A stretch of DNA of 44,712 nucleotides, taken from positions 1 to 44,712 of IMG/VR virus record IMGVR_UViG_3300048908_000199; one strand, 5' to 3'. The position numbers were made by a program, and so were the translations under genes. Under the pieces are notes generated by a model. That model worked only from the letters and a program-made list of their open reading frames with translations, had not been told where the DNA came from and did no database searches. Every line of letters starts with the position of its first letter. The first letter of the stretch is position 1. Origin of the DNA: a virus. Of this stretch, positions 121-44,712 are shown in pieces.

Positions 121-3100
121 TCAGTATCCGAAAACGGGGTCGATCGGGCGATTGTTCTTTCCAGCGATAAGGCTGGGCGACTGCGGCATCCCCGGCTGAT
201 AGTTGCGTTCATCGACGGGCGCCGGGAGCGTCACGCCCTGTTGCGGGTGCTGCATGGCGTCCTTGGTCTGCTGGCGCAGATCGAGCAGGAATGCGCCGCC
301 GTCCGCGCCCTTTAGATAGGTGCGCGTCGTCGGGTCGTTGCCGCCCGAGAAGATGCGATATTGGCCGTCGCCGTGGCTTTCCAGCCGCCATTGCCCTGAC
401 GCGCCAAACTCATTGCGTTGCAGCATCTTCGCCGTGATCGCATTGCCCTCCTTGTCAGTCGCCCCGGCAAGATCAGCGTCGCTCAAACGATTGATCGCGT
501 CGCGCACATAACCTTCATTCGCGCCATAGACCGGAGAGAGGATCGACGTGCCTTTAAAATTTACGACGCCGCCCGTCACCTTGTCGATGGCGTCCTTCCA
601 GCGCTCGGCATTGAACTGGCCGGTTTCATCGCCGGATTTCGCCGCCTGCGCGACATAATAGGCCTTGGCGCTGTTCAGCGTGGAGGCGCGCAATCCTGGG
701 TTGCCAAAATCCTGAATGGGGAACGACTTGGCGAAAGCCGGCGCCAATTCCTTGTCGGCCGGGATCAGTTTATCGGCCGCGCCCGATTTGATGAGCGCCT
801 GCCCTTCCATGAGGTCTTGCGCAACCTGCGGGCTGTATTGCCCGACCTGCCCGGCCTTGGCGACAATCTGCCCCTCGACGCCGGTTTGCGCGATGGCCGA
901 GAGCGTGGCCTGGCGCTGCGCCTCCGGGAGCGCGGAAAGAGCAGCCGAGGCATTGAGCTTCTGCTGTGTCGTCCCGGTTTCCATGACGCCCTTCCATTGG
1001 TCCGTCTCGCTGCTCGGGATCGCAGACAGGTTGCGCAGCCCCTCGCGCGCGCCGATCGCCGTCATCGCCTGCGACCGCTCAATCATCGCGGCGCCCAGGT
1101 CGTGGGGATCGTCAAAGTTCAGCGGGCGCGGCGGCTGCGCGATCCAGCCACGGTTCAGTGCCGCCTCGATCGGGTGATCGCGAAGCTGCGCCTGCCCGCG
1201 CTGATAGGCCGCCTGCGCCTCGTTGGCGATATTCTGCTGGTGGATCGAGCCGCCTTGCGCCTGCTGCATGACGGAATTGACGAACGCCTGCCCCTGCGTC
1301 GGCGGCATCCCCATAGCCACATCAGACTGGATTTTGCCCTGCACCATCGCCGTCAGCTTTTCGCGCTGTGTCGCCTGCGAAGTGTCGCCTTCCGTGAGCT
1401 GGATATAATTTGCGAGCGCGGTCGATGACGGCATAAAACCATTCTGCAACTGCTTCTCAAGCGCCGGCCCCATGATTTGCGCCGCCTGCGACTGGTTCTG
1501 CTGGTCGCGCGCCTGCTGGCCGATCCATGCCGAGGCGAGATAGGGGTTCTGCTTGACCTGCTCGGGCGTGTAGGGGACGCCGTTCGCAGATGGCGCCTGC
1601 GTGCCGGAATATTTCGCCGCCCATTTCTGGACGAAGGCGCTCGCCGGCGCGTTCGGGTCGCCCCCATTATTGGAAATCGCCTGCGCCGAGACAACCTGCC
1701 CCGCGGGCGCATTTGGGTTTTGCAGCAGCGCGAGTGCGCCGCCCGCGCCCTGCTGGTGCGCGAGATACAATTCAGCCTCAGTCGGCGCGCGGCCAAGGCC
1801 GCCTTTCAGCGCGGAATAGTTGTCTGCGGTAAGGCGCTGCATGGCGACTTCCTGCGCCTTCGGGTCCATAACATCCCCGCCGCCGCCATATTTCGCCCAC
1901 GTCCCGAAGGTGAACTGATAGCGCCCCTTGGCGCTACTCGTGCTGGCGCCCGCCGCGTCATTGCCCGCGCTTTCGATCTGGCGGGTGCGCGCCATATAGC
2001 CGGGGAGCGCCGCGGAAAGATCGTTGACCTGCCCGGCGCCATGTCCCATCAGCATATCGGCCTGCTGCTGCGGCGAGAGGCCCGCCGTCGCAGTATGGAA
2101 GCCGTGGATCATCTTGAGCGCGGCGACTTCCTGCGCGCTGTGGCCGTCGCCGGATGCGACCGCCGCCTGCGCCGCCTGGTCCCACACCTTGCCCTCGATC
2201 GGCTTGCCAGTGCCGATCATGGTTTTCAGGTTGGCCATGCTCTGCTGGTTAGCGTCAACCGCCGCGACATTCTGCCCCTGCAAATACGAAAGCCGCGCCT
2301 CGCCCGCCGCCTTGATCTGCGCGCGCTGCGCCGGGCTGGCGTCGGGCATCGTCTCTGCAGCGTGCCACAGTTCCTCGCGCGCCTTAAGAACGCCGTCGCT
2401 CGCATAGGTCCGGTCCATGTGGCCGACAACCGCCGCGCCTTGCAGCGCCGCCGTCGCGTCCTTGCGCGAGTTCTCGACAACCTGCTCTGGCATGCCCCAG
2501 CGCGGGTTCTCCTTGGCCGTATCGAAATAGCCATTGAGCTTGGCCATGCCCTGCTTATAGGCTTCGGTCCCGGTCGCGCCCTGCTGTGCGAGTTGGAGCA
2601 GATCGTTCTTCTGGCTCTCAATCTGCGCCAGCACATTGGCCTTGGCGTCGGCATCGTCAGATGAAGCCTTGGCGTTTACCAACCCGTTATAGTGTTGAGC
2701 CGCCATGGTAGTGGCGTTGTCCACCATCTGGACGCCGAGCGGCGACGAGCCATATTGCCCTTTGAGGGTCGTGATAAAGCCGTTCGCCGCGTTCTGGAAG
2801 CCCCGCGGATCGCCGTCGAACTTCTGGCGCATGGTGTTGAGCGCCATCGTCGTGGCAGCCTGCCCCTGCGCCTGCGTCCCGGCGACGGCGGCATGTTCAT
2901 AGATCGCGCCCGCCTGCGCGTTGAAGATGAAGGACTGGTGCGGGTGCACGGCGACGATGCCGCCGCTGGCGTCGCGCGTCACGACGGGGTTCATCGCGTC
3001 CTCGCGGCCCTGCTGTTCAGCCGACACATTCGCGAGCTGCTGCACGCCCTGCCCGAGCGCGGCCACGCCATTGGCTAAGTCCTGTCCCTTGGCCGCGATC

Positions 3101-3174
3101 TGCGCGCCGGAAATGCGCGGCGTCGGGGCCTGGATCAGCGGGTCGCCGGGATCGGGAATTTGCAGCTCAACCAT
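121..3174 (-). CDS. Large internal virion protein with transglycosylase-like domain
   Basis: This 1017-residue protein follows the tail nozzle and a small core protein, the usual place for podovirus ejection proteins. Most of it is Ala/Gln-rich and helical. A globular segment near residues 395-500 contains RQIESAGN followed by AKGRYQF and later an AHQQG motif. This resembles the catalytic Glu region and the G-x-YQF signature of lytic transglycosylase-like lysozyme folds. The inferred role is local peptidoglycan cleavage during DNA injection, with the rest forming part of the internal core. The virion-protein call is fairly sure; the enzyme assignment rests on motif resemblance only. Confidence 0.7.
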   Translation of the reverse strand: MVELQIPDPGDPLIQAPTPRISGAQIAAKGQDLANGVAALGQGVQQLANVSAEQQGREDAMNPVVTRDASGGIVAVHPHQSFIFNAQAGAIYEHAAVAGTQAQGQAATTMALNTMRQKFDGDPRGFQNAANGFITTLKGQYGSSPLGVQMVDNATTMAAQHYNGLVNAKASSDDADAKANVLAQIESQKNDLLQLAQQGATGTEAYKQGMAKLNGYFDTAKENPRWGMPEQVVENSRKDATAALQGAAVVGHMDRTYASDGVLKAREELWHAAETMPDASPAQRAQIKAAGEARLSYLQGQNVAAVDANQQSMANLKTMIGTGKPIEGKVWDQAAQAAVASGDGHSAQEVAALKMIHGFHTATAGLSPQQQADMLMGHGAGQVNDLSAALPGYMARTRQIESAGNDAAGASTSSAKGRYQFTFGTWAKYGGGGDVMDPKAQEVAMQRLTADNYSALKGGLGRAPTEAELYLAHQQGAGGALALLQNPNAPAGQVVSAQAISNNGGDPNAPASAFVQKWAAKYSGTQAPSANGVPYTPEQVKQNPYLASAWIGQQARDQQNQSQAAQIMGPALEKQLQNGFMPSSTALANYIQLTEGDTSQATQREKLTAMVQGKIQSDVAMGMPPTQGQAFVNSVMQQAQGGSIHQQNIANEAQAAYQRGQAQLRDHPIEAALNRGWIAQPPRPLNFDDPHDLGAAMIERSQAMTAIGAREGLRNLSAIPSSETDQWKGVMETGTTQQKLNASAALSALPEAQRQATLSAIAQTGVEGQIVAKAGQVGQYSPQVAQDLMEGQALIKSGAADKLIPADKELAPAFAKSFPIQDFGNPGLRASTLNSAKAYYVAQAAKSGDETGQFNAERWKDAIDKVTGGVVNFKGTSILSPVYGANEGYVRDAINRLSDADLAGATDKEGNAITAKMLQRNEFGASGQWRLESHGDGQYRIFSGGNDPTTRTYLKGADGGAFLLDLRQQTKDAMQHPQQGVTLPAPVDERNYQPGMPQSPSLIAGKNNRPIDPVFGY

Positions 3175-28994: not shown

Positions 28995-29329
28995 CACTCG
29001 ACGCGCTGCCCCTTTACGCGACCGACGCCGAACTGGCGAAAGCCATCCTTGGCAAGCGCGCTAAGGAGTGGCCGCGCGTCGTCGCGCTCTATGAGGCGAA
29101 GGGCTTACCACCGATCAACACATTAATGTGTGGACGCTATTCGCCAGCAGTGCTAAGGTTCTTCGACCATTTGGAAGGCGTGACGAACAGCGCCCCGGTG
29201 GCCTCCTGTGACGGGAAAGAGGACGCTTTGGCATGGAACAAGAGAAAAACGCGGCGCCCGGCCTCAAGTGGCGCCCGCGAGCAGATGGCCGCAAAATCCC
29301 GGTCTGGTGCGCCCGCCCCGACGCGATAG
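28991..29329 (+). CDS. Excisionase-like small winged-helix protein
   Basis: This 112-residue protein is started at MTLDALPLYATDAELAKAIL in the ATGA overlap. The N-terminal 60 residues contain a short helix-turn-helix-like segment (TDAELAKAILGKRAKEWPRV) and the turn YEAKGLPPIN. This resembles excisionase and DUF4224-type proteins. The basic C-terminus overlaps the integrase start by 97 bases. The position directly before integrase supports a recombination directionality factor. A perfect copy of the operator dyad is inside its coding sequence. Confidence 0.5.
   Translation: MTLDALPLYATDAELAKAILGKRAKEWPRVVALYEAKGLPPINTLMCGRYSPAVLRFFDHLEGVTNSAPVASCDGKEDALAWNKRKTRRPASSGAREQMAAKSRSGAPAPTR
29118..29131 (+). 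promoter_or_regulatory. Perfect 14-bp operator dyad inside a coding sequence
   Basis: ACACATTAATGTGT is a perfect palindrome and the best match in the window to the operator consensus. It lies in the excisionase-like gene, about 100 bases before the integrase ATG. It could block read-through or a local promoter for integrase. Confidence 0.6.
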
Positions 29330-30435
29330 CCGCCGGGTTCCCCCTCAAGACCGTGAACCTGTCAGATACGCCGCTCGACATGCTGCCCGCGCGCTGTCAG
29401 CGCCTTTGGGCGGAAATGCTCGACTTCGCCGGACAGAGCAAGCGGCCGGGATATGATGGGACGATCGGCGCGCTGATCGACGTGTACACGACCGCGCCGG
29501 AAAGCCCCTATCAGAAGCTCAAGGCGAGCAGCCTTCACCCCTATCGCATCTATGCGGCGAAGATCAAGGCGATGGCCGGCGCGCGCCGCGTGGACGCGCT
29601 GACAGGCCTCGATGTGATGCGCTGGCATGAGTTGTGGCGCCACCCGCAGAAGCCCGGCGGGAAGCCGCTGCTTGGCGCGGCGACGATGGCGCTGAACGTC
29701 CTCAAGGCTGCTTTGGCTTTCGGGCAGATTTGTGGCTTCCGCGAGTGCGCCGAACTTCTCTCGACCACGAAGCTCCTGACGCTGCCGAGGCCCAGGAGCC
29801 GCGAGGAAGCGCCGGAGGCCCAGGATATCGAGCGAGCGCGCGAAGCCGCCCACGCCATCGGACGGCCGCGCGCCGCCCTATGCTATGCCCTACAGTTCGA
29901 CACGACCGCGCGCCAGTGGGATTTGATCGGGGGATGGGTTCCACTGGACGACCCGCGCCCCTCGACGGTCCTTGGCTACGGAAAAAAATGGATCGGTCTG
30001 ACATGGGCGAGCATTGCGGATGGCGTGCTGCGGATCATGCCGAGCAAGACATTCGAGACGACCCGCGCCCGCGTGAGCGTGAACCTGTCGCTCTGCCCAA
30101 TGGTGCAGGAGGAAATGGCGCGCGTGCCGCTGTCCGAGCGCGTCGGCCCGCTGATTGTGAACGAGGCGACCGGCCTACCCTATCTCCCGCAGGAGTTCGC
30201 CACGATCTGGCGTAAGGTCCGCAAAAAGGCCGAACTGTCGCCCACGCTCTGGAACCGCGACATTCGCGCCGGCGGCATCACCGAGGGCGGCATTGCGGGC
30301 GCCAGCGCCGACGACCGGGCGAAGGTAGCTGGCCATTCCAGCAGCAAGACGACGCGCGCGGTCTATGACCGTGATGTGATCGTGGCGTCGGATCGCGTGG
30401 CCGAGGCAAGAGCGAAGTTCAGGCGTGGTGAATGA
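29233..30435 (+). CDS. int: Tyrosine integrase
   Basis: This 400-residue protein has an N-terminal arm/core-binding part and a C-terminal catalytic domain from about residue 190. Arg I is in ALQFDTTARQWDLIGGW. Arg II is in WNRDIRAGGITEGG, where the usual HxxR His is Asn. His/Lys-type AGHSSSKTTRA is followed by the nucleophile Tyr (AVYDRDV). It integrates and excises the phage. The AT-rich gap just downstream has arm-like repeats, the expected place of attP. Confidence 0.88.
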   Translation: MEQEKNAAPGLKWRPRADGRKIPVWCARPDAIAAGFPLKTVNLSDTPLDMLPARCQRLWAEMLDFAGQSKRPGYDGTIGALIDVYTTAPESPYQKLKASSLHPYRIYAAKIKAMAGARRVDALTGLDVMRWHELWRHPQKPGGKPLLGAATMALNVLKAALAFGQICGFRECAELLSTTKLLTLPRPRSREEAPEAQDIERAREAAHAIGRPRAALCYALQFDTTARQWDLIGGWVPLDDPRPSTVLGYGKKWIGLTWASIADGVLRIMPSKTFETTRARVSVNLSLCPMVQEEMARVPLSERVGPLIVNEATGLPYLPQEFATIWRKVRKKAELSPTLWNRDIRAGGITEGGIAGASADDRAKVAGHSSSKTTRAVYDRDVIVASDRVAEARAKFRRGE

Positions 30436-32142: not shown

Positions 32143-33054
32143 TCAGCCTGCCTTTCGCGCGGCGGTGAGCATGGCGACAACAGCGGCGAACGCTTCCGCG
32201 AGCGTGTGGCCGGCGGCGAGAAGCGCGCGCGTCGTTTCGTGGATCAGATCAGAGTCGGCGGCGGCCGCCGGCGGCGCGGGAAGCGGGATCGGCGCGGGAA
32301 ACTCGGCGGTAACGGGGTTCGCCGCCGGGACATTCAGGCGAGAGACGAGACTTCCGGCCGATGGCGCGACCGGCGCGGTGACGGCCGACGGCGCCTGTGG
32401 GGCGGCCGGCGCGGGGATAGGCTCCGGGGCAGGCTCCGCGCCATCGAGGAAGTGATGCGCCCGACCGAGATACATAATGCGGTCTGACAACCCATTGGAG
32501 CCGCCATTGATGAGGCGCGTCACGTCGGCAGTCTTGCCCGCGCGCGCCGGCTCATGAATGTTGCGGGAGGTCCAATAGGCGCAGGCGATATCCAGCGCGT
32601 GAGCATCGGAAAGGGCGAGGTCTGGATTGCTGACGAGCGGAAGGCCGGTCGCGCGCTCCATCGCGGCGTATTGGTCACGACCGGTCAACCCGAGAGGCCC
32701 GCGCGCGCGGAAGGTCCAGCCGTCATTCGGGCCACTGTTGCCCATCCGGCCGCCATAGACCTGGTTGGCGATCGCCTGCGGCCCCTGCGCGGCGACATGC
32801 GCGGCGTCAATCTCGCTCTTGAAATGAGAGGTGCCGAAAACCTGCCAGAGCCGCGAGCCGGAATAGTTCAGGTTTTCCTCAAAGCGCGTCAGGCCCCATG
32901 TCTCGACGCAAATCTGCGCGATGAGCTGACACGCTTCCTCGCCCGATTGAATGTTGCGCCTGGCGAAAACGTCAGCCGCGTGATCGACAATCGCGGCGAC
33001 GATTTTCGCATCTGCGTTCGGGCATATCAATTTGAGGGCGTTGCCGGAAATCAT
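32143..33054 (-). CDS. Endolysin, GH19 (chitinase-like) muramidase
   Basis: This 303-residue protein has the GH19 endolysin core: AQICVETWGLTRFEENLNYS near residues 46-65, with the two Glu of the catalytic region. FRARGPLGLTGRDQYA (about 118-133) and NGGSNGLSDR follow. A Pro/Ala-rich linker and a C-terminal helix (HTLAEAFAAVVAMLTAARKAG region) come last. It degrades peptidoglycan after the holin lets it out. Its ribosome-binding site is in a hairpin. Confidence 0.85.
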   Translation of the reverse strand: MISGNALKLICPNADAKIVAAIVDHAADVFARRNIQSGEEACQLIAQICVETWGLTRFEENLNYSGSRLWQVFGTSHFKSEIDAAHVAAQGPQAIANQVYGGRMGNSGPNDGWTFRARGPLGLTGRDQYAAMERATGLPLVSNPDLALSDAHALDIACAYWTSRNIHEPARAGKTADVTRLINGGSNGLSDRIMYLGRAHHFLDGAEPAPEPIPAPAAPQAPSAVTAPVAPSAGSLVSRLNVPAANPVTAEFPAPIPLPAPPAAAADSDLIHETTRALLAAGHTLAEAFAAVVAMLTAARKAG

Positions 33055-33128: not shown

Positions 33129-34769
33129 TTAGAACGCCATACACTGTCCGGCGATCACATCGCCGGACCCCATCACTTGCGCCGAACCGGTCGTGCGGGA
33201 GTAATCTTGAAAAGACGCGCTCGTGGCCGTGTAGCCGTATTGCGCGATGACGTGAGTAGCGGCCCCGGTAATATCTTGCAGATTGCATGACCATCCATGC
33301 GCCGCAGGCGGCAAAGCAATCGACGCGTTGCCGGCCGCGCAGGCCGACCCGACCGTGATTGAGAAGGCGGCGGTACCGTTGGCGGTGATTGACGGGCTGG
33401 TGCAAAAGCCGCTCGCAATCGTCGCGGCCTGCCCGCTTATGGCAGTGCTAGCGAGAGTCAATCCGGCGACTTTCGTATTGCCAACACCGTCCACCTGGAA
33501 CCCGCTTGATTTCAAAAAATATCCGGTGATGGTATATGCAGACAGGTCCATCCCTTTATAGATGGTGTTGTGTGTGCCATCCGTACAAATTACACAACCG
33601 CCCGCGGAAATCGGCGCAAGCCCGCCGAGGTTGGATAGATAGAAGCCGTTGACCCAGTTGGTAGCTAACGCCCCCGACGCCGCATGAACCTCATAAGCCG
33701 CATCGCCCAACGATCCCTCGGCGCCAGGGAAGGAAGCTGCTGTATAGCCGAAGCGGTAAAGCGCCGTTCCAACCACGTTCACATCATTTTCTTGGCCTGC
33801 CACTTCCACAACATGCGAAGCCGCGCCACGAACAACAAAGTTGGCTCCGAAGAACGCGCCCTTTTCATTCCCGAGCGTGCCGCCGTCTCCGCTGTCGATT
33901 TGCATGTACGTTGTTAGCGGAACATAATTGCGGTTTGGATTGGTGGCGCTGGATGGAGCCGTAAAATCCATGATAATATCGACGCCCTGCCGCGCGCCTT
34001 TGACGCCCGCGCCGATCTTGTAATTGAATTGCCAGCCGTCGATCGCGCCGAGTTCCGACGAGTCCACCGTATCGCCGGTGATCGAAAAAAGCTGCATGCA
34101 AGTAAATCCGAACGACGATACTCCGCCGCAGGTCGTCGCGGCTATGCCAGACGCCGAAAGCGTCTCACCTGCGACGTTGAGGGTCATCGCAGGATTGCTA
34201 GTGCTTGGCAGGACGGCGAGCATGGCCGGGAATTCACCGATGGATGTCGGAGAGGCCGGCGCCCAAATAGGCCGAATGCCAGGGCCAGCCGATGTCAGGA
34301 CATAGCCCGCCGTCTCAGGGAACGATGGCGCGAACTGCTTTACCTCACGCAGCGACGAGGTAAGCGTGTTGACTTCCTGTTCGTATTCTTGGCGCGTGAT
34401 GCCCGGAGCCGTCGGGATCGTCGTATTGCGCGGATGCCAGGCCCCGATGATTTCCAGCGTGCCAGACGACAGCGATGGTGAAAGCGTCACCTGCATGTCC
34501 GTGATCGGCAGCGATTGCAGATTGAGAGCAACGCCGGACGCCGACGCGCAGGTCCATTGGCTATTCAGCGCGAGCGCGACACCATTGGAAAGCACCTGGA
34601 TATCGGAGCAGTCGCCATAGACCGCGAAAGGGACGCCAACAACCGTCGTAGGGGACGAAAGCGTGAAACTGGCGTAGCGATCAGCGTCAGGGACGGGAGG
34701 AACCGTCGCGTGCGCGGCGAATGGAAAGAGCGCGAGGATCGCAGCGGCGGCGATGCGCTTGATGGTCAT
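33129..34769 (-). CDS. Signal-peptide-bearing tail-fibre-like protein
   Basis: This 546-residue protein is started at MTIKRIAAAAILALFPFAAH; an upstream in-frame ATG adds 13 residues. It has a Sec signal peptide with an AHA-T cleavage site. A beta-rich body follows, and the C-terminal domain (FSITVGSACAAGNASIALPP, AHGWSCNLQDITGAATHVIA) is typical of phage tail-fibre tips. The last gene before endolysin in the fibre cassette. Host-receptor binding is likely. The signal peptide is odd for a virion protein. Confidence 0.7.
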   Translation of the reverse strand: MTIKRIAAAAILALFPFAAHATVPPVPDADRYASFTLSSPTTVVGVPFAVYGDCSDIQVLSNGVALALNSQWTCASASGVALNLQSLPITDMQVTLSPSLSSGTLEIIGAWHPRNTTIPTAPGITRQEYEQEVNTLTSSLREVKQFAPSFPETAGYVLTSAGPGIRPIWAPASPTSIGEFPAMLAVLPSTSNPAMTLNVAGETLSASGIAATTCGGVSSFGFTCMQLFSITGDTVDSSELGAIDGWQFNYKIGAGVKGARQGVDIIMDFTAPSSATNPNRNYVPLTTYMQIDSGDGGTLGNEKGAFFGANFVVRGAASHVVEVAGQENDVNVVGTALYRFGYTAASFPGAEGSLGDAAYEVHAASGALATNWVNGFYLSNLGGLAPISAGGCVICTDGTHNTIYKGMDLSAYTITGYFLKSSGFQVDGVGNTKVAGLTLASTAISGQAATIASGFCTSPSITANGTAAFSITVGSACAAGNASIALPPAAHGWSCNLQDITGAATHVIAQYGYTATSASFQDYSRTTGSAQVMGSGDVIAGQCMAF

Positions 34770-34771
34770 GT

Positions 34772-34800
34772 GCCAGTCTCCAATTTTCAAGGAGACTGGC
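34772..34800 (-). promoter_or_regulatory. Perfect 10-bp hairpin covering a ribosome-binding site
   Basis: Leftward RNA: GCCAGTCTCC, nine-base loop, GGAGACTGGC, then AC and the ATG of the fibre gene. The GGAG site is inside the stem. No T-run follows, so it is not a terminator. Translational control is the best reading. Confidence 0.65.
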
Positions 34801-34846
34801 TGTGTCAAGGGGTCGTCTCAACGCACCCGGATCAATTCAGGCATCG

Positions 34847-35884
34847 CTAAACCAGTGCCGCCCCGGCAGGCGTCCCGATAGTCGGGCAAATGCCGTTGCC
34901 TTCGTCGCATTCGTTCCATGCGTAAAGGAGAGCCGTGTTGGCGTCGCACGGCGCCGGGTTCGCCGCGATGAAAGCCCGCACCGCGGTAATATGCGCTTTA
35001 AGGTCAGCCGCAGCAGGGCGAGCAGCAGTCACTAGACTGCCCATCCAGGGGCGAATGGATTGGTAGAACGACATGGGCCGCCGATAGATGCCGGCGCGGG
35101 TCCAGCCGCTCGAACAGCTCGGGATGAACTTCGCCCCCGTCGCCAGTTGCGAGGCCCAATAGGCTTCGACGGCTGCTTCATAAGCAGCCCATGACATATT
35201 CGGCGTGACGGTGACGGTCGGATTATAAACGCCGATGGCGTCCGCGCCGATCGAGGTTTTGACGGCCGTGTCAAGATCGTTCATGACGACGATGTAGGGC
35301 GTCCCCAACCCCGCCGCGACCGCCGCAGCACGCAAAGCCGTAATCATCGCGGCGACGTTGGACAGCGAGCCGCCCCAATAGCCAGCCAAATCCGCCGCAG
35401 CCGAACCCCACCAAATATAAAGCAGCGGGCGGTTTGTCAGCACTTTGAAATAATTCGGCTGCTGGAACCACGCTACCATCTGATTGACTTGCGTGGTGTA
35501 GTTTCCGGTCGATCCCATCATGCCGAGCTGCATCATGGCGCACCAGGGCATCGTGGCTTTGATGCTTGACGATTGGTGTAAATCCCACGCATTCATCATG
35601 TAAGGCGCGCCGGAATAATCCGGATCGCCGGGGTTGCGCCCGTACATAAGATAGGCCCAATAGCTCAGGCCGTTGGCGGCGGCTTTGGTGATTTCGTTGT
35701 CGATGATCGCCTGCGTTCCGGTGACCGCCCCGAGCGTGTAGCTGTTGATCTGCTTGTAATGAACCGGCGCATATTGCTGAAGGTCAGCATCGGAGAGCGC
35801 AATCGCGTTCTGCGCGGCAGGAGAACCGGCTGCGGCAGAATACCATGCATCCCAACGGATAGCGCCAATGGTGGGAGTCGTCAT
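34847..35884 (-). CDS. GH99/GH71-like hydrolase candidate (depolymerase)
   Basis: This 345-residue protein has no signal peptide. TPTIGAIRWDAWYSAAAG at the start, NEITKAAANGLSYWAYLMYG near residue 65 and NRPLLYIWWGSAAADLAGYW near 145 resemble the early strands of GH99/GH71-type TIM-barrel glycosidases. Such domains attack surface polysaccharide. Set in a fibre/adhesin cassette it may be a capsule depolymerase. The start overlaps the upstream stop (ATGA). The family call is from pattern only. Confidence 0.5.
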   Translation of the reverse strand: MTTPTIGAIRWDAWYSAAAGSPAAQNAIALSDADLQQYAPVHYKQINSYTLGAVTGTQAIIDNEITKAAANGLSYWAYLMYGRNPGDPDYSGAPYMMNAWDLHQSSSIKATMPWCAMMQLGMMGSTGNYTTQVNQMVAWFQQPNYFKVLTNRPLLYIWWGSAAADLAGYWGGSLSNVAAMITALRAAAVAAGLGTPYIVVMNDLDTAVKTSIGADAIGVYNPTVTVTPNMSWAAYEAAVEAYWASQLATGAKFIPSCSSGWTRAGIYRRPMSFYQSIRPWMGSLVTAARPAAADLKAHITAVRAFIAANPAPCDANTALLYAWNECDEGNGICPTIGTPAGAALV

Positions 35885-37122
35885 CCGTTCATGTCCTCGA
35901 CGTTATCGACGCGCACAGTCCAGCGAATGGTTTCGCCTGCCGCTCCGGTGCAAATCACATAGCCGTAGCCAGTCGTGGTGTTTGTCCCGAGCGTCGCCGT
36001 CCAGGTCGAGCCGGCCCCGGTCGATGCGACGGGGGCGCCAGTACCGGTGGAATAAACCAGCGCCAGCGTCGATGCCGTGGCTCCCTCGTTCCAGTAGGCA
36101 AGAATATTCCACATTGCCGAAGCGCCCGTCGTCGTGTTTCGAGCGACAACGAGGATGCGGCTGGCTACCGTCTGATTTGCCTGAACCTGGATCGTGTTGA
36201 CATAGGTCGCCGCCCCGGCGTCTGACGTTGCGGTGACGGGGGTTGCGGATGTGGACTGAATGGCAAACGCCTGTTCAGAAATCTGTGTGGTGCCGTGCGC
36301 CGAGCCAAGTAACGCGCTCATGTGCGATCGCTTTCCAACCACGTAATGGTCAGAAGCGGTGTTGCCAGAAGATACAGAATAGTTTCCGAGGGCATAATTA
36401 TTATTGCCAAGAGCGGTGGATGCGAACCCCAGCGATTGATTGAACCGCCCGAGAGCTACGGAATTTCCTCCCGTAACGACCTCGCTCGGACCGGCCGAGA
36501 AGCCTCCAGTGCCAGTAGGCAAGACGTTTATCGAAGTGTTGTCCCCGGACGCCGTGTAGATGACCGTGTCGCCTTGCACGGATTGAAACACCGGCCAAAC
36601 TGACGGGCTAAGACCATTCAGCGCCTGAAACTGCGCCAGCAGCCCAAGACCATTGCCAAGGACGACATTGCCGGTCCCTTTCGCCGCAATGTCGGCGTCA
36701 ATATTGGCGTCGGACCCCTGCGCGAAAAGAGTTGGAGCGCCCCCCGCGATATTACCCTCGACGGAAAAGTAATTGACCGCCCCTGGGAATGGATAAATCT
36801 CGAACTGCCGCGATCCATCTGGCCCCATGAAGTCAGTAGCGCCATTCCCCAAATTCGGGACGGCAAACGCATATCCGAAACCGAGATTGGCGACTGACGC
36901 ACTTAGCGAAGCAGAATGCGCGACGGGATCAAATACGCCGATCGGGGTACAGATATCATCCGGCGTATTGCCGGCCGCGCCAAAGCCCTTGAGGCAAAGC
37001 GTCCGGGCGCCGCCGCCCCCATAGACTGAGAGGATTACAGGCTGATCGGCATAAGCCAATTGCGCCAGCAATGCTGCGGCCAAGAAGATGGCCGAGCGGA
37101 CCCTTAATGTGAGGCGTCGCAT
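35881..37122 (-). CDS. Signal-peptide-bearing adhesin with YadA-head-like repeats
   Basis: This 413-residue protein has a Sec signal peptide (SAIFLAAALLAQLAYA, cut AYA-D). The mature N-terminus RTLCLKGFGAAG ... PIGVFDPVAH is shared with the next protein. Residues about 215-275 contain SVALGRFNQSLGFASTALGN, the YadA-head type repeat. A beta-rich C-terminal tip follows. There is no membrane anchor. Likely a trimeric adhesin-like fibre. TGATG coupling to its upstream neighbour places it in the same late operon. Confidence 0.68.
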   Translation of the reverse strand: MRRLTLRVRSAIFLAAALLAQLAYADQPVILSVYGGGGARTLCLKGFGAAGNTPDDICTPIGVFDPVAHSASLSASVANLGFGYAFAVPNLGNGATDFMGPDGSRQFEIYPFPGAVNYFSVEGNIAGGAPTLFAQGSDANIDADIAAKGTGNVVLGNGLGLLAQFQALNGLSPSVWPVFQSVQGDTVIYTASGDNTSINVLPTGTGGFSAGPSEVVTGGNSVALGRFNQSLGFASTALGNNNYALGNYSVSSGNTASDHYVVGKRSHMSALLGSAHGTTQISEQAFAIQSTSATPVTATSDAGAATYVNTIQVQANQTVASRILVVARNTTTGASAMWNILAYWNEGATASTLALVYSTGTGAPVASTGAGSTWTATLGTNTTTGYGYVICTGAAGETIRWTVRVDNVEDMNG

Positions 37123-38249
37123 CAGAAATGCTCAACGATAATGGCGTAGCCAGCGCCGCCGAGGCCGCCGGCCCCCGCCGTACCGCCGTTTTGCGCCGAG
37201 CCGCCGCCACCACCGCCGCCACCTGGGAGGCCGCCAGCGCCGCCCGCAAAGGCAGCAGCGAGAGCAGAAGCTCCGCCGGCCCCACCCGCGCCGCAAAGCA
37301 TACTCGTCCCGCTCGCCGCGACACTGAGAGCCGCGCCGGAAGGCCCCGTTCCGGCCCCGCCCGTCGCCACATTCGTAATGGAGCAAGCGTAGCCGCCAGA
37401 ACCGCCATTCGAAACAGCATTGCCTGAGGTAATGCCGCCGCCAGAGCCGCCGCCGGAGGGCGCAGTATTGGACGAGCCTGTTGCGGACGACGCGCCAGCC
37501 GCCGTGCTACCACCGCCACCGCTGCCGATAAGATAGTTCGCGGTCGAAGCCGCCCCCGCACCACTCCCACCAGCAATGCCCAGCCCAGACCCGCCGGAGC
37601 CAGCCGTTGACCCGGAGGCATTCCCGCCCGCGCCGAGGAAGCCGCCGGAGCCGCCACCCGCGCTTGCGGCCGCAAGCTGCCCGCCGGAGCCGCCGCCGGC
37701 GCCATAAGCGATCAGGAGCGAACCAAGCGACGTGTTGCCGCCGGAACCGCCATTGCCGCCGGCGGTCGTATCAGAAGCCGCGGCCGTCCCGATACTCCCA
37801 CCGGACCCGATGGTTATGGCCTGCGATGCTCCAACTGCCGCAGATGTGAATGTAGCAAATCTCGCCGCCGCAGCGCCACCGCCGCCACCACCGGAAACAG
37901 CCGTAGAGGCCGCCTGGCGCGCTCCGCCGCCTCCACCACCGCCGCCGCCGATAAGGTAAACATCAGCCGTCTTCATGCCCGTCGTCGGCGTATAGGTTCC
38001 CGACGCCGAGAAGGTGACGACATTGGTTTGGTTCAGGCTGGTCGTATGCGCGACCGGATCGAACGTGCCGATCGGGACGCAGGTTGCGTCAGGCGTGTCG
38101 CCATTGGCGCCGAAGCCATGCAGGCAGAGCGTGCGCTGGCCAACGCCAACGGCGACGCCGAGCGTGACCGGCTGCGTCGCCATAGCGGGAGCGATGGGGC
38201 AGATCGCCGTAGCGAGAGAGAGCGCGAGCGCGAAATGCTTGAGAGACAT
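37122..38249 (-). CDS. Signal-peptide-bearing glycine-rich adhesin
   Basis: This 375-residue protein has a Sec signal peptide (ALALSLATAICPIAPAMA, cut AMA-T) and the mature start QRTLCLHGFGANG ... PIGTFDPVAH shared with its neighbour. From residue about 85 to the end it is a long glycine/serine/alanine repeat region (GGGGGGGGARQ, GGSGGNTSLGS and similar), as in Gly-rich phage fibre tips. The repetitive DNA is consistent with changeable specificity. Probably a receptor-binding fibre. Confidence 0.68.
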   Translation of the reverse strand: MSLKHFALALSLATAICPIAPAMATQPVTLGVAVGVGQRTLCLHGFGANGDTPDATCVPIGTFDPVAHTTSLNQTNVVTFSASGTYTPTTGMKTADVYLIGGGGGGGGGARQAASTAVSGGGGGGAAAARFATFTSAAVGASQAITIGSGGSIGTAAASDTTAGGNGGSGGNTSLGSLLIAYGAGGGSGGQLAAASAGGGSGGFLGAGGNASGSTAGSGGSGLGIAGGSGAGAASTANYLIGSGGGGSTAAGASSATGSSNTAPSGGGSGGGITSGNAVSNGGSGGYACSITNVATGGAGTGPSGAALSVAASGTSMLCGAGGAGGASALAAAFAGGAGGLPGGGGGGGGSAQNGGTAGAGGLGGAGYAIIVEHF

Positions 38250-38291
38250 TTGCCATACCTCGAAACGATGAGACGGTTGCGGATCGCGGCC

Positions 38292-40103
38292 TTACCGGAG
38301 GACCGCCAATTGGTTCATGAGAAGCTGTTCGACCTGGATGTGGGTAAAGCTGGTCGGGTGGATGCCATCGGTCTGGCCGACATAGCCGGGACACCACACG
38401 CCGCCATTCGGGACGAGGACGGTCGCCTGGTTCGGGGCGCACTCCACCAGGCGCGCAATGTCGATCAGGCCCGCGCTCGACGTGGGGAAGGTGTTCGACA
38501 TCGTCGGCCATTGCAGCGTCACGGCGAACGATCCGGTCGCCGTCGCGGCGCTCGTGAGCGTCATGGTTCCGGCGTACTGGTTGATCGCGGTGATGACGTT
38601 ATTGGCCGGGATATTGCCCGCGCTCACGGCGTACATGCCCGTCGCGCCGGTCGTGACCGTCAGGCCCGTGCAGGCGGTGACAGCAGTTGTGGCGTTCAGC
38701 GTGCATGTCGTCGGCTGGCCATAGCCGACGAGGCCGCGCATGAAATCGTTGAATTGCGCTCGGTAATTGTTCGCAGTGACATTGACTGTGGTCTGTCCAG
38801 TCGTGTCATTCCATCCGTTGGCCGAGTTCGTCTCAGGCGTGATGGTCGTGTCATAAACCTTGATGCCCGGGATCGCCGCCGTCGCAGCGGTCCTAAAGGT
38901 CGCGCGGTCTGTGATTACGTTGTCGGCCGTGCGCGACCCTGCAAAAAAGTCATTGACGCCCGGTTCCAAGACCGCACTTGTCGCCCCCGCCGTCGCGGCA
39001 AGCTGGGTGCGCAGCGTGGCGTTACTGGCAATCCACATGGCGCGATCGCCAGGGACGCCGAAGTTAAGTTGAGGCCCGAGATAGGCCGCCGCACGCCCGA
39101 GCAGCCCGCGACCGCCAGACGGGTCGCCCATCATGTCGTTGACGCCGGCGACAATACTGTCACCGACCAGCCACCAGACCGAACGGTCGGACAGCCCTAT
39201 GACTGCGCCGGGAAACCAGCAGTTGGCCGGCGACGTGCCGAGAACCGTATCGTTCGCGGAGTTGTCGGCCATTGCGTTGCCAATGGCGAACTCATCGCCA
39301 TTGCCGCGATCGCAAGCGTTCGACCACGACGAATAGACGGCCTTGCCAGCACCGCCGGACCAGTCGAGGAAATAGTTGATGCGGAATTTCGCGAAGGGCG
39401 GGATCGTGAAACCAAGGCTCGTTAAGTCCGTGCAGCCATTCGTGAGCGCCGTGACCACCCCCGAAGACGCGCCATTCCAGAGCAGGTCTTTGAAAGTCCC
39501 ACGCGGATATTCCACGACGATATGAGCGGCCGTGATATTGCCGCCGGGCGTAGTTTCAACGCCCGAAACAGTCGAATTGATGAAATAATTCGGGACGCAG
39601 ACCTTGAGCGCGTTGACCGGCACATAGGCCATCTGCCAAGAGCGGCCATTGATTTGGGTGTTGCCGCCAGAAAGGGTGTTCGCCATGCCGGTGCGGTTCG
39701 TGACCTGGCGAGGCGTCGCGGGCGTGACGGAGCTGACCGGGACGGCGAACGGACCTGACGTGTTCCGCACGCCAATGAGCGTCGAGGAAGCCGATGGCGT
39801 GGTGTAGCCCGTCACCAGCACATTCGCGGAGGACGCGCCGAGCGACAGGCCCCAAAGATGCGATGCGGTCGAAAAGGTGGCGGGCGGCGCGCTGGGGCTT
39901 ATAGTCTGGCAAATCGCCGCCGCGGCGGGCTGGGCATCCGCAGAGCAGATCGAAACAAGCGACGCCGAGACGTTCTTGATTTCGGCCGGACCGGCGCCGA
40001 GGTCAGTATAGGAACTGGACGTGATCGCCGTTTGCGCGAAAGCGGGCGCGGCAAGAGCAGCAAGGGCGAGGGCCGCCGCGAAAATCCTGGATATGCGCGC
40101 CAT
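38292..40103 (-). CDS. Signal-peptide-bearing SGNH esterase/deacetylase
   Basis: This 603-residue protein has a Sec signal peptide (IFAAALALAALAAPAFA, cut AFA-Q). The SGNH hydrolase blocks are VWWLVGDSIVAG (Ser, about residue 315), GVPGDRAMW (Gly), LEPGVNDFFAG (Asn, about 382) and DGIHPTSFTH (Asp-His, about 580). It likely removes acetyl or other ester groups from surface polysaccharide during adsorption. First gene of the fibre cassette. The fold call is good; the substrate is inferred. Confidence 0.78.
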   Translation of the reverse strand: MARISRIFAAALALAALAAPAFAQTAITSSSYTDLGAGPAEIKNVSASLVSICSADAQPAAAAICQTISPSAPPATFSTASHLWGLSLGASSANVLVTGYTTPSASSTLIGVRNTSGPFAVPVSSVTPATPRQVTNRTGMANTLSGGNTQINGRSWQMAYVPVNALKVCVPNYFINSTVSGVETTPGGNITAAHIVVEYPRGTFKDLLWNGASSGVVTALTNGCTDLTSLGFTIPPFAKFRINYFLDWSGGAGKAVYSSWSNACDRGNGDEFAIGNAMADNSANDTVLGTSPANCWFPGAVIGLSDRSVWWLVGDSIVAGVNDMMGDPSGGRGLLGRAAAYLGPQLNFGVPGDRAMWIASNATLRTQLAATAGATSAVLEPGVNDFFAGSRTADNVITDRATFRTAATAAIPGIKVYDTTITPETNSANGWNDTTGQTTVNVTANNYRAQFNDFMRGLVGYGQPTTCTLNATTAVTACTGLTVTTGATGMYAVSAGNIPANNVITAINQYAGTMTLTSAATATGSFAVTLQWPTMSNTFPTSSAGLIDIARLVECAPNQATVLVPNGGVWCPGYVGQTDGIHPTSFTHIQVEQLLMNQLAVLR

Positions 40104-40157: not shown

Positions 40158-42632
40158 TCAACGCACCATCTGGCTCATGTCTGGCGGCGCGCTCGGGGCG
40201 TTGTCGCCCGGCGCCCACCAATAGGTCTGGTGGTGCAGTTTCTCGGCGTTTTCCTTGGCCCTCGCGAAGGCGCGCGCATAATCAGGGTCAACGGATTTTT
40301 GAATGTTATCAAATAGATAACGGTTTGCGAGGAGACGGGTGTACCAGAGCGTCCCGCCCGGCGCGAACTTCTGAATGTCGCGCGCGAGCATCCGGCCATA
40401 GTTGACCTTCTCGCCGTTCTCCGCTGCGCGCCGCGTCGATGACGTGATATCCTGCAACGCCTCCGGGAACTCTGCCATCGGCCCCATCAGCATATCGGTC
40501 CACGACGCTTTGCCAGGTTCGGTCGCGCCCTTGAGCAGATCGCCGTAAGGCCCGAGCGCGCCGCCCATCAGCGCGGCCTCGCCCCAGAACCAGCCTTCAT
40601 CGACCGGCTTGGGATTTTTGCCCTGCAAGACCTGCTTGGCCTGGATCGCGACGGCGCCCGCGAGCGTCATGAACAGGCCGAGCGAGGCCGCCTGCCCCCA
40701 TCGCCCATTGCTCGCCTCCTGCGCCGCGCGCACGCCATGCGTCGCCAGCATCATGATCGGGAACGACTTGAACAGGAACATCGAGCGCGTCAGTTCGCCG
40801 GGCAGCGTGCCGCCCTTGGTCCCGCCGCTGGTCAGCGCGCGGATGCGGTTCGACGAGCCGGCGAGGTAGGCGAATTGCTTCTCGTCGCCAATGGCCGACA
40901 TGAGCTTGGCGCGCACACCTTCCTCAAGGCTATCCGGCATCAGGAACTTCGCCGCCCCGGCGCTCATCGTCTCGCCCTTGGACAGCTTGGCCCAGTCCTC
41001 CTTGGTGAAGCCGTAATCGGTCAGGAAGCGCGCGAAATCATGATCCAGATCATCGAAGCCCTTGCCGGCGCGCTCCGCGATCGAGGCCAGAAATTCCATC
41101 GAGAAGGCGCGATTGATCGCGCTGTCCCACGCGTGAAGGCCCTGCGCGCGCACGACGAAATCGGCCATGCGCTGGAATACGCCGGTTCCGAACATCTGGT
41201 CGCCATATTGCTTCGTCCCAAGCGCGATGCGGGTCGCCGCGTGCGCCGTGACGCCGAGCCGGGTTGCGAAGGCCTCCTTGTCCGGTGCGTCCGATGCAAG
41301 CTGATCGAAGATCGCCTTGGCGAGCCGCCCGGCATCGAGGCCGCGGAACTTCGCCGCCATCGCCCAATTGACCGCATCCGATGGGATCGCCGTCACGATG
41401 GCGCCGCCCATGTTGGAAGCCGTCAGCCAGGCGCGCGCGCCCTGGAACACCCCGGCGATCGCCTCACTCTCGACGCCGGAAGTCTGGCCGGTCATCAGCT
41501 TGTGCAGCCGCTCGGCATTGGCGCGGCCTTCCAGCGGCGACATGAGCGTATCGCCCAGCTTTTCCCAAGCCGAGCGCGCCGGCGGATTGAGAGCGCGGGT
41601 GGCGTCTTTCTCGATCGCTGACTTGAGCAGTGCATCGCCCGCCGTGCGGAAGTTTGGCCCCATGACGTGGAGCATCGCCAGCTCGCGCGCCATCTTCTCG
41701 CCGTGGGATTGCAGCATCGGATAATAGTGGCCCTGCCCAGGCCCGTACTTGTCCATCAGTTCGAGATAGGCGTCGGCGCCCTTCCGTCCTTCCGCGAACC
41801 GGAAGGTGCGCTGCTCGTTCTTGAACACGGTCGAAGGCCCAGCGCGCGAGGACATATCCTTGCGAATGTCATCGCTCGCGCGCTGCAAAACCTTATCGCG
41901 CTCGGCCCCGGCGACGAATTTTCCGGTGTCCTGGTCGAACACCTTGAGCGCGCCGCTGTCGATATGGCGTTGCAGGTCAGCCTTGAACTCGCCCTCGCCA
42001 AATCTGTTGACGCGCTTGCTCTCCCAAAACTGCGGCAGGCGCCAATCTTCGGCCAACTCGAAAATCTTGCCGAGGTCTTTGGCCTTCTGCGTCGCCCATT
42101 CGGTCGCGTCTTTCCAGCCCTTGGCGGCGTGCGCGGCCACCGTATCGCCGGTCTGCTCGCCAAACATCTCACGAACCATGTTGCGAACGCCGGTCTTGTC
42201 CTGCTTCAAACCCGCCATCGTGGAGCGATAGGCCGCATCCGCCTCGTGCATCTTGGCGGCGATCGTCGGCTGATACATTTCCTTTTCGAGCGAAGACACA
42301 TTCTCGCGGTTCGCCATCGCGGCATTGCGGGTGTCGCGGTCATAGAGCGCCATGAACCCAGCGATCGGCCCGTTCGGATGCGCGTCGATGCGCTCGCTAT
42401 TCTCGATCCAATGGTTGACGCGGCGCGCCAGTTCCATCTTCTTCGCCTTGGCCTGCGCTTCCAGGCGCTTCGCCAGTTCGACGGAGGCCGCCGCTTCCGC
42501 CGCCGGCTTGTCCATGTTGCGGAACAGGTCTTCGTTCAGGATGCGATTGTAGAGCGCGCGGGCGTCATCGGCCTGCTGCTTGGTCAGTTTCCCGGCGTTC
42601 GCGAGGCGCGCGATGCATGGCTCGATCGACAT
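40158..42632 (-). CDS. Large internal virion protein
   Basis: This 824-residue protein starts MSIEPCIARLANAGKLTKQQ in a TAATG overlap. Long helical regions, Lys-rich N-terminal part, a segment around TASNMGGAIVTAIPSDAVNW and hydrophobic ALGLFMTLAGAV-type helices later suggest an ejected protein that can meet the membrane. It lies between two structural genes. I recognise no enzyme domain. Confidence 0.6.
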   Translation of the reverse strand: MSIEPCIARLANAGKLTKQQADDARALYNRILNEDLFRNMDKPAAEAAASVELAKRLEAQAKAKKMELARRVNHWIENSERIDAHPNGPIAGFMALYDRDTRNAAMANRENVSSLEKEMYQPTIAAKMHEADAAYRSTMAGLKQDKTGVRNMVREMFGEQTGDTVAAHAAKGWKDATEWATQKAKDLGKIFELAEDWRLPQFWESKRVNRFGEGEFKADLQRHIDSGALKVFDQDTGKFVAGAERDKVLQRASDDIRKDMSSRAGPSTVFKNEQRTFRFAEGRKGADAYLELMDKYGPGQGHYYPMLQSHGEKMARELAMLHVMGPNFRTAGDALLKSAIEKDATRALNPPARSAWEKLGDTLMSPLEGRANAERLHKLMTGQTSGVESEAIAGVFQGARAWLTASNMGGAIVTAIPSDAVNWAMAAKFRGLDAGRLAKAIFDQLASDAPDKEAFATRLGVTAHAATRIALGTKQYGDQMFGTGVFQRMADFVVRAQGLHAWDSAINRAFSMEFLASIAERAGKGFDDLDHDFARFLTDYGFTKEDWAKLSKGETMSAGAAKFLMPDSLEEGVRAKLMSAIGDEKQFAYLAGSSNRIRALTSGGTKGGTLPGELTRSMFLFKSFPIMMLATHGVRAAQEASNGRWGQAASLGLFMTLAGAVAIQAKQVLQGKNPKPVDEGWFWGEAALMGGALGPYGDLLKGATEPGKASWTDMLMGPMAEFPEALQDITSSTRRAAENGEKVNYGRMLARDIQKFAPGGTLWYTRLLANRYLFDNIQKSVDPDYARAFARAKENAEKLHHQTYWWAPGDNAPSAPPDMSQMVR

Positions 42633-44712
42633 TATTCAGCCGCTTCCGTGAGGGACATGGGCGTGTTGCAGGCGTTCAGTTCCTTCGATAGCGCCAAGTC
42701 GCCGTCGATCTTGTGCAGTTCGGCGTCGGCAAAGCCCAGCGTCGTGTTGCCTTCGGCGTCCGTGACCGGCACGCGGTTCTTGCCCTGCGCGATATTGCGC
42801 TCAAGATCGGCGTTCATCGCCTCTTGCACTTTCGGATCATCGACGGCGTGAAGCAAGTCTTTTTCCGGCGTGGCGAACCGGGCAAGCGCCGCCTCGCGCG
42901 CATCCGATTTGGAGACGACGGCGGAAAGCGCCTCCTTCGCCGTGACGGGCGCCGCGCCGAACATATCGGTTCCCTTGGCCGCGCTCTCGGTCATTTCCCG
43001 CGCGAAGCCGGAAAGGTTTTCGCCCATTGCGGTTTTCGACAGGAACCGCTTGAGGTCGCCATCCTCCGTCCGCTTGAAGAACAGACGAGCGGCGAGTTGC
43101 GACGTGTCGCTGTGGAAGAAATCCCCCTGCGCCAGCAGTTTCCCGACCGGCTCGCCTTCGTCGCGGGCGCGCATGATCGTCTTGACCGCGCGCATCACAT
43201 CGTCGGTCACGTCATGCGATGACGGGATTTCGCCGCGCGTCACGGCCTCGCGGAACTTGATCCAGTCGCCTGAGCTGTCCACCAGGGCCGAGGCGATCGA
43301 CTTGATGTTGCTGTCGGCATGGTCGAAGGCGCGCGACACGACGCCGGGGTCGCCATAGGCGCGCGCCACCATCGCGGCTTTGATCCGCTGCACGCCCGCC
43401 GCCGACAGATCGCCGTTCGCGGTCAGCATGCCGCCGCGCTCGCCCGGCGGCAGCTTATTGGCGAAAGCGCGTGCGAAATCCCGGTTCGACGCCTTGAGAA
43501 CGTCGCCGCCGCGGTAATATTGCGTCACGTCGCCGTTCAGATGGCGTGCATCCGACAAGGCCTGCTCAGCCGTGGACATGCGCAGCGAGGCCGAGCCGTT
43601 GGCGGCATGGGCGAAGTCCGCGCGCGCCGTCTGGTCCATTTGCGTCACGCGCCGCGCGACCAGCACCGGCTCTTTCATGCCGGCTGTGTCGAAGCCTGAC
43701 CGCTCAAGGAACGCTTTGTAGGCTGCCGCGTCATCCGACGGATAGGCCATGCGGACAGCCATCGCGCGCCCGTTGCCGCTCTCGACGACATTATCAGGCC
43801 CAACGATCGGGGCGCCGGAATTAGCCTCGACGCTTGGCCCGAGCCTTTCCGGCTCAAGGTTCTGCGCGATCGAATAGACCTGCTCGCGCGCTGGGACGCC
43901 GCCACGATTGCGGGGCTGCAACTCAGGCGGGTAATCCGGGTTGACGTTGAAATTCGTGTCGTGTGACGTGACGAGGTCGCGCGCTTCCGCGAGTTCATAT
44001 TTCACATCGACGGCGCGATTGCCGACGAAGGAGCGGCCGGGGGTCGACATGGCGGCCGGGGCTGGCGCTTTCGGCTCGGCCGGGAATACTTGCCCGGTGC
44101 GGGCACCAAGTTCAGCCTGCGCCGACGCGGGCAATGCCGCATCCTGACCGCGCAGAAGCTGGCCCTCGATCGTCTGCACCGCTTCCGAATGCGCCGCCGC
44201 GCCGGTCGCGCCAGTCCTAAAGGGGTTGTTGGCGGTGATATCCTCCTGCCGCTCAGCCACAATGCCGGCGTCGCGCGCCGCCGTGGGGAGTGTCGCGGCG
44301 ACTTCCGGCGCCTTGTCCGTCAGGTTGCGCCATATCGCCCCGGCGGTCTTGCCGATCAGCCGCCCGGCGAGGTCGAGGCCGACGCCGCCCGCCGCCGCCC
44401 CGGCAACATTCTCAGCCGCGCGACCGAAGCCATAGTTCGGGTCCACGTCCGATTTATAGCTGGCAGTCGCCGCCTCCTGCACCGCCTGCTGCGCGGCCAT
44501 GCTGGCGCCGGTCATCAGCGCCGACTTGAGCAAGCCGCCTTCCGGGATCGTCGTCATCGCGGCGATGTTCAGGCCGGCCGTGAGCGGATCGGAGAATTGC
44601 GCGCCGAGTCCAGCCGCCATTTCCGCGCCGCCCGTGCCGAAATCCTGCATCCCCTGCGCAAGCCGCGCCTGGTCCTGCGTCGCCTTGCGCGCCTTGGCGA
44701 TGCCCAATTCGT
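42632..44712 (-). CDS. Virion protein with DdrB/ParB-like domain, 5' end missing
   Basis: The frame is open through the right window edge (about 693 residues seen); the start lies outside. Early residues are Gly/Ala-rich with possible membrane segments. From about residue 225 to 400, RSFVGNRAVDVKYELAEARD, then NVVESGNGRAMAVRMAY and MSTAEQALSDARHL fit the DdrB-like ParB-superfamily domain of large phage polyvalent proteins. It may be injected to act on DNA. Probably the same gene as the start at the left edge. Confidence 0.65.
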   Translation of the reverse strand, partial: ELGIAKARKATQDQARLAQGMQDFGTGGAEMAAGLGAQFSDPLTAGLNIAAMTTIPEGGLLKSALMTGASMAAQQAVQEAATASYKSDVDPNYGFGRAAENVAGAAAGGVGLDLAGRLIGKTAGAIWRNLTDKAPEVAATLPTAARDAGIVAERQEDITANNPFRTGATGAAAHSEAVQTIEGQLLRGQDAALPASAQAELGARTGQVFPAEPKAPAPAAMSTPGRSFVGNRAVDVKYELAEARDLVTSHDTNFNVNPDYPPELQPRNRGGVPAREQVYSIAQNLEPERLGPSVEANSGAPIVGPDNVVESGNGRAMAVRMAYPSDDAAAYKAFLERSGFDTAGMKEPVLVARRVTQMDQTARADFAHAANGSASLRMSTAEQALSDARHLNGDVTQYYRGGDVLKASNRDFARAFANKLPPGERGGMLTANGDLSAAGVQRIKAAMVARAYGDPGVVSRAFDHADSNIKSIASALVDSSGDWIKFREAVTRGEIPSSHDVTDDVMRAVKTIMRARDEGEPVGKLLAQGDFFHSDTSQLAARLFFKRTEDGDLKRFLSKTAMGENLSGFAREMTESAAKGTDMFGAAPVTAKEALSAVVSKSDAREAALARFATPEKDLLHAVDDPKVQEAMNADLERNIAQGKNRVPVTDAEGNTTLGFADAELHKIDGDLALSKELNACNTPMSLTEAAE

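Follow-up and report, generated by a model that had tools for sequence, protein, structure and literature searches.

The DNA analysed here (the window) comprises the 44,712 bases of an IMG/VR virus record; its genes include an integrase, a large terminase, tail proteins, ejection-type internal proteins and an endolysin, the structural genes being encoded on the minus strand. The integrase gene (29233..30435, plus strand; phrog_1, E 9.5e-11) indicates that the phage is temperate. The fibre cassette (33129 to 40103) lies between a downstream gene for a GH19-like endolysin (32143..33054, minus strand; phrog_181, E 7.5e-61) and an upstream gene for a virion structural protein (40158..42632, minus strand; phrog_684, E 1e-116), a homologue of phiV10 p20 that serves as a marker of the slot. 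In phiV10 the genes for tail proteins and then internal proteins are followed by those for the p20 homologue, tail fibre p25, oac, holin, endolysin and integrase, and the window cassette occupies the position of p25/oac. This shared arrangement, running from tail and internal genes through fibre and lysis genes to the integrase, places the phage among the epsilon15/phiV10-like podoviruses. The record is apparently circularly permuted, the cut falling between the gene of a 1017-aa protein (121-3174) and the one at 42632-44707, because both genes adjoin in the sister phage L002; the 691-aa ORF 42632-44707 is probably the cut remainder of a gene that encodes 813 aa in L002, after the large internal protein.

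Within and flanking the cassette, a scan restricted to the sigma-70 consensus found promoter-like sites at the level of shuffled sequence and terminator-like sites below it, and start/stop overlaps couple the cassette genes. Since there is no excess of promoters or terminators inside the cassette and its genes overlap, late co-expression is likely. The same scan did not find the promoter and terminator of its own that characterize a lysogenic-conversion gene (moron).

Signal peptides in the fibre cassette

It had been proposed from the sequence that four neighbouring fibre-type proteins of this operon begin with Sec signal peptides. We confirmed the four ORFs at 33129-34769, 35881-37122, 37122-38249 and 38292-40103, all on the minus strand, and applied a rule-based detector that combines a charged n-region, a hydrophobic h-region devoid of D, E, K, R, H, N and Q, and an AxA-type cleavage site. 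On 42 E. coli K-12 genes used for calibration, it flagged exported proteins together with the inner-membrane proteins pqiB and yccF, and none of the cytoplasmic proteins. Exactly these four of the 49 window ORFs were flagged as carrying a Sec/signal-peptidase-I-type signal peptide, each with a positive n-region, an uncharged hydrophobic core and an AxA-type site, as originally described. The N-terminus of 33129-34769 reads MTIKRIAAAAILALFPFAAHA, with predicted cleavage ahead of TVPP; its start, the ATG at 34769, is backed by a GGAG ribosome site, and the TTG at 34808 is an alternative upstream start. For 35881-37122 the N-terminus is MRRLTLRVRSAIFLAAALLAQLAYA, with cleavage predicted ahead of DQPV, for 37122-38249 it is MSLKHFALALSLATAICPIAPAMA, with cleavage predicted ahead of TQPV (the rule also permits cleavage between APA and MATQ), and for 38292-40103 it is MARISRIFAAALALAALAAPAFA, with cleavage predicted ahead of QTAI (the rule also permits cleavage between APA and FAQ). 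The hydrolase-like protein in the middle of the cassette (34847-35884) was negative with the detector, which agrees with the earlier reading that it has no signal peptide.

Among 176 distinct large ORFs of epsilon15-like phages, the detector flagged three and no fibre; the three comprise two membrane-protein-like sequences and an SGNH hydrolase, predicted to be exported. The four cassette proteins have no lipobox, and inspection by eye revealed no convincing twin-arginine motif; export as lipoproteins or through the twin-arginine route was rejected on these grounds. A dual start yielding an exported and a cytoplasmic form was also rejected, as no internal start backed by a ribosome site lies between signal peptide and mature part.

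Modular architecture of the cassette proteins

The tail-spike/fibre protein 33129..34769 (minus strand) consists of the signal peptide (34707-34769), a T7-type-like docking N-domain (about 34323-34706) and a variable C-terminal body, of which residues 243-383 align with the tail spike of an Escherichia phage (30.7% identity, E 2e-4) and which is replaced in the sisters L002, L003 and L011. In epsilon15-like relatives, fibres begin with a T7 gp17-type docking domain, which in most of them lies at the ORF start or close to it, and have no signal peptide. The mature N-domain of 33129-34769 aligned in register with the N-domain of T7/T3/Lo5/epsilon15-type fibres over 128 aa, with hhalign scores of 12.6-14.1, whereas 60 column shuffles gave a maximum of 8.0 and a mean of 2.9. 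This signal required a wider set of relatives, a direct hhalign comparison of two profiles built from few sequences giving none, and the N-domain has no match above cut-off to Pfam (PF03906) and no convincing PHROG profile match. Structure prediction with AF2, which had been suggested as a check, gave an uninformative model of the hydrolase (pLDDT 35). The N-domain model, built from four sequences, is of low confidence (pLDDT 44), yet the best nine of 350,542 PDB chains matched by the N-domain model are podophage tail or tail-fibre chains, the T7 gp17 N-terminus included (best E 1.2e-3). Against a viral library, the named top matches were mostly tail fibres, one of them titled T7 tail fibre. 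In 4/4 sisters the signal peptide precedes the T7-type-like domain, so that the domain is not at the protein start there. A T7-type docking fold is thus supported by sequence and model, though not proven, and the combined tests, none decisive alone, make it likely that the mature N-domain is a virion-docking domain.

The next two signal-peptide proteins share a different N-terminal module. The fibre protein 37122..38249 (minus strand; signal peptide 38178-38249, Cys-pair module 38025-38177, glycine-rich domain 37350-38000) matches the tail family phrog_863 (E 3.9e-15) and, just below cut-off, PF21722 (E 1.1e-4). The fibre protein 35881..37122 (minus strand) has its signal peptide at 37048-37122, its Cys-pair module at 36895-37047 and a body with a weak YadA-head repeat at 35884-36888. 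The common module, of about 50 aa and with the motif RTLCLxGFG...CxPIGxFDPVAH, lies directly behind the signal peptide in both, as does every copy in the loci examined, and is joined to glycine-rich, fibre, SGNH and glycoside-hydrolase-like bodies. The contractile-tailed L148 has a weak copy (E 0.0045). A role as a tail-specific dock is unlikely for a module that podophages share with contractile-tailed phages. In L003 the third cassette gene (L003:13017-15872) encodes a 951-aa protein with a signal peptide, the same Cys module and weak GH79/GH30-like C-terminal matches; as read from its sequence, the N-terminal module stays in place while enzyme bodies behind it are exchanged.

The SGNH/GDSL esterase protein 38292..40103 (minus strand) combines a signal peptide (40035-40103), a beta-type Cys-pair module (39744-40034) and the esterase domain (about 38745-39167), which matches PF13472 above cut-off (E 1.8e-8, 35.5 bits against 32.9) and phrog_8480 (E 4.4e-53). 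Its post-signal module recurs in L149 as a stand-alone signal-peptide protein. In another epsilon15-like phage, L084, a signal-peptide-bearing SGNH hydrolase (L084:16699-17877) lies between a normal signal-less tail fibre and the lysis genes; from its position at the place of phiV10 oac it is likely to be an exported O-antigen-modifying enzyme.

A conserved Cys pair is thus present in three post-signal N-terminal modules, the T7-type-like domain among them, where two conserved cysteines are found in 4/4 sisters against zero to one in 36 signal-less relatives. SGNH proteins with a signal peptide contain on average 1.52 Cys per 100 residues versus 0.78 in those without (p 0.001), but the signal-bearing members with 8 conserved Cys form a single related group and do not count as independent cases; exceptions are the signal-bearing L002b with only 3 Cys and the signal-less TtB with 10. 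That the conserved pairs form disulfides, as expected in an oxidizing compartment, is supported by these patterns and not proven.

Residues 79-413 of 35881-37122, which in part resemble an annotated Pseudomonas phage tail fibre (41.5% identity over 65 aa, E 1e-3), recur at 66-85% identity in L004, L148, L149, L151 and L102/L103. The N-termini ahead of this shared body are unrelated: the Cys module in the window and L148, repeats in L149, a PSAAEWN fibre motif in L102/L103, and in L151 a signal peptide followed by almost nothing. All of these fibres carry a signal peptide except that of L004, whose signal-less N-terminus weakly resembles hypothetical proteins from two further phages. L148 is contractile-tailed, a tail-sheath gene adjoining, and in L103 the neighbour is a baseplate gene. 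The body travels with the signal-less hydrolase-like protein (34847..35884, minus strand; 345 aa where complete), whose gene begins at the stop of the shared fibre body in each phage and in the window overlaps that stop by 4 bases. Copies lie at L004:13855-14892 (86% identical), L148:3527-4564, L149:6001-7038, L151:6001-6555 and L152:5992-7071. The protein has a weak WbsX/GH99-like match (PF14307, E 0.021, 14.7 bits against a cut-off of 25.1) and no match in the PDB. In L148 the tail sheath gene follows directly on the fibre-hydrolase pair; in L152 the pair adjoins a gene, located upstream of a tail sheath gene, for a 375-aa protein with a signal-peptide-type N-terminus containing a twin arginine (L152:7343-8470; MNRRTALL).

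Sister phages and the distribution of signal-bearing fibres

Three sister phages, L002 (= L010), L003 (= L012) and L011, were compared with the window, a check that had been called for, and a signal peptide was found on every large fibre-slot protein in them (4/4 in L002, 4/4 in L003 and 3/3 in L011). The earlier assignment of the signal-peptide proteins to a virion-fibre operon likewise stands, given the phiV10 fibre slot, the T7-type-like N-domain and the body that is also found in a signal-less fibre. Between the window and L003, the signal peptides of the glycine-rich protein are 23% identical and the following 50 residues 80%; for the third cassette gene the corresponding values are 27-39% and 60-82%. 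The spike gene departs from this pattern, with a signal peptide as strongly conserved as the remainder. Signal peptides typically drift freely in their letters while keeping their features, a pattern not expected of a helix that contacts the virion.

About 77 other epsilon15-like loci have fibres without signal peptides. Signal-bearing fibres are not unique to the window operon and recur in several unrelated phages. The N-module has no match in isolated phages. The remainder of the L002 and L003 genomes contains no fibre gene and no additional signal-peptide gene of note; judged by sequence, the sister genomes hold no receptor-binding candidate besides the cassette.

The records with the shared fibre body all carry the neighbouring metagenome numbers 3300048907 and 3300048908, and the SGNH protein, with a signal peptide, also occurs in metagenome 3300048918; these phages may share a host. 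The SGNH protein has no close relative in GTDB genomes (best identity about 29%), and 385 alphaproteobacterial genomes yielded distant prophages only, without signal-bearing fibres. An alphaproteobacterial host is our guess. One alphaproteobacterial prophage encodes, directly downstream of a signal-less T7-type fibre, a 396-aa protein with a signal peptide and no Pfam family (L143:1347-2537).

Proposed export of the fibres and its alternatives

We favour, at roughly even confidence, the explanation that the cassette encodes true fibres or spikes which pass through Sec, acquire their fold and disulfide bonds in the periplasm and attach to virions at lysis. A temperate epsilon15/phiV10-like podovirus would produce four receptor-binding proteins from its late operon, and these would leave the cytoplasm unfolded through Sec, whereupon signal peptidase I would cleave off the signal peptide and the exported fibres would trimerize and form disulfides in the periplasm. 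Lysis proteins would then open the envelope, and virions crossing the fibre-filled periplasm would acquire fibres on their short tails. In parallel, the exported esterase and fibre domains would likely act on glycans of the host envelope. Export, cleavage, oxidation and docking at lysis are all steps that we infer from sequence. Counting against this explanation, the docking-domain match is below HMM thresholds and its model has a pLDDT of 44, and virion docking is not obvious for the L151 fibre because almost nothing separates its signal peptide from its body. Periplasmic content, moreover, is quickly diluted at lysis.

The main rival, which we consider clearly less likely, is that the proteins are exported adhesins and esterases which no longer belong to virions and which act on the producing cell's receptor by binding, masking or stripping it, so that superinfection is prevented or progeny leave the debris without re-adsorbing, in the manner of a receptor-destroying enzyme. 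An SGNH esterase accompanied by otherwise fibre-type proteins would suit such a role, as would the L151 fibre with no evident dock, the pairing in L084 of a normal signal-less fibre with a signal-bearing SGNH hydrolase, and the O-antigen acetyltransferase oac of phiV10 in the same slot. It leaves the sisters, however, with no other candidate for receptor binding, and it does not account for a probable virion-docking domain retained in one signal-peptide protein or for a late-operon cassette that showed no promoter of its own; Sec alone, furthermore, carries a protein no further than the periplasm.

Tailed-phage virions are, by textbook knowledge, assembled in the cytoplasm, and one could suppose that the signal-like stretch is not used for export and is retained as a hydrophobic element that serves assembly or attachment to the virion. 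We consider this improbable, as the letters of the stretch vary while its charge, hydrophobic core and AxA site persist, it precedes seven or more unrelated mature N-termini across podophages and contractile-tailed phages, and ordinary relatives lack any such segment. Least probable is a chance position in the fibre slot of host-derived morons expressed from the prophage to alter the cell surface, for which the temperate lifestyle and the exported, lysogen-expressed lambda Lom (PMC12309495) speak, but which fits poorly with coupled start/stop overlaps and no promoter or terminator excess seen around the genes, with a body common to an ordinary phage fibre, and with three to four such genes in succession in all sisters.

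Known systems resemble the proposed export and docking of fibres in part. The phiV10 p25 or T7 gp17-type arrangement is alike in gene slot, flanks, a resembling N-domain and variable C-terminal bodies; its relatives begin with the domain and have no signal peptide, whereas in the window a Sec signal peptide stands ahead of the domain and a Cys pair is present. Filamentous phage coat proteins are virion proteins made with Sec signal peptides, but their assembly takes place in the membrane and involves no lysis, whereas the window phage is short-tailed and has an endolysin. The outer-membrane protein Lom of lambda is exported in lysogens from a gene between those of the tail spike and the tail fibre (PMC12309495), and is alike in being a signal-peptide protein that a temperate phage encodes among its spike and fibre genes; it is a single beta-barrel gene, whereas in the window nearly the whole fibre cassette, with fibre and enzyme domains, bears signal peptides. 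The endolysin of phage fOg44 shows that a tailed-phage protein can have a working Sec signal peptide (PMC6116005), although there the exported protein is a lysis enzyme and here the proteins are fibre-type. SGNH esterases of phrog_8480, for example in Mesorhizobium phage Lo5R7ANS, belong to the same family as 38292-40103, but this and other distant members have no signal peptide and lack most or all cysteines of the signal-bearing group. A paper on "N-terminal signal peptides" in eCIS was rejected as a precedent, since it concerns effector loading and not Sec. The literature searched, outside which most subscription papers lie, contained no description of a tail fibre with a Sec signal peptide. 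We regard the cassette as one of tail fibres with a Sec signal and not as a new system.

More tentatively, and with somewhat under even confidence, we propose that a group of podo- and contractile-tailed phages finishes its virions outside the cytoplasm, by Sec export, periplasmic oxidation and docking during lysis. If this is true, tailed-phage assembly gains an extracytoplasmic step, in which fibres could be stabilized by disulfides, and modification of the receptor could be tied to fibre production. One paper took the absence of a signal peptide as an argument in favour of a phage origin for a variable protein (PMC6199706), and filters that drop signal-bearing proteins as non-virion would miss the receptor-binding proteins of such phages.
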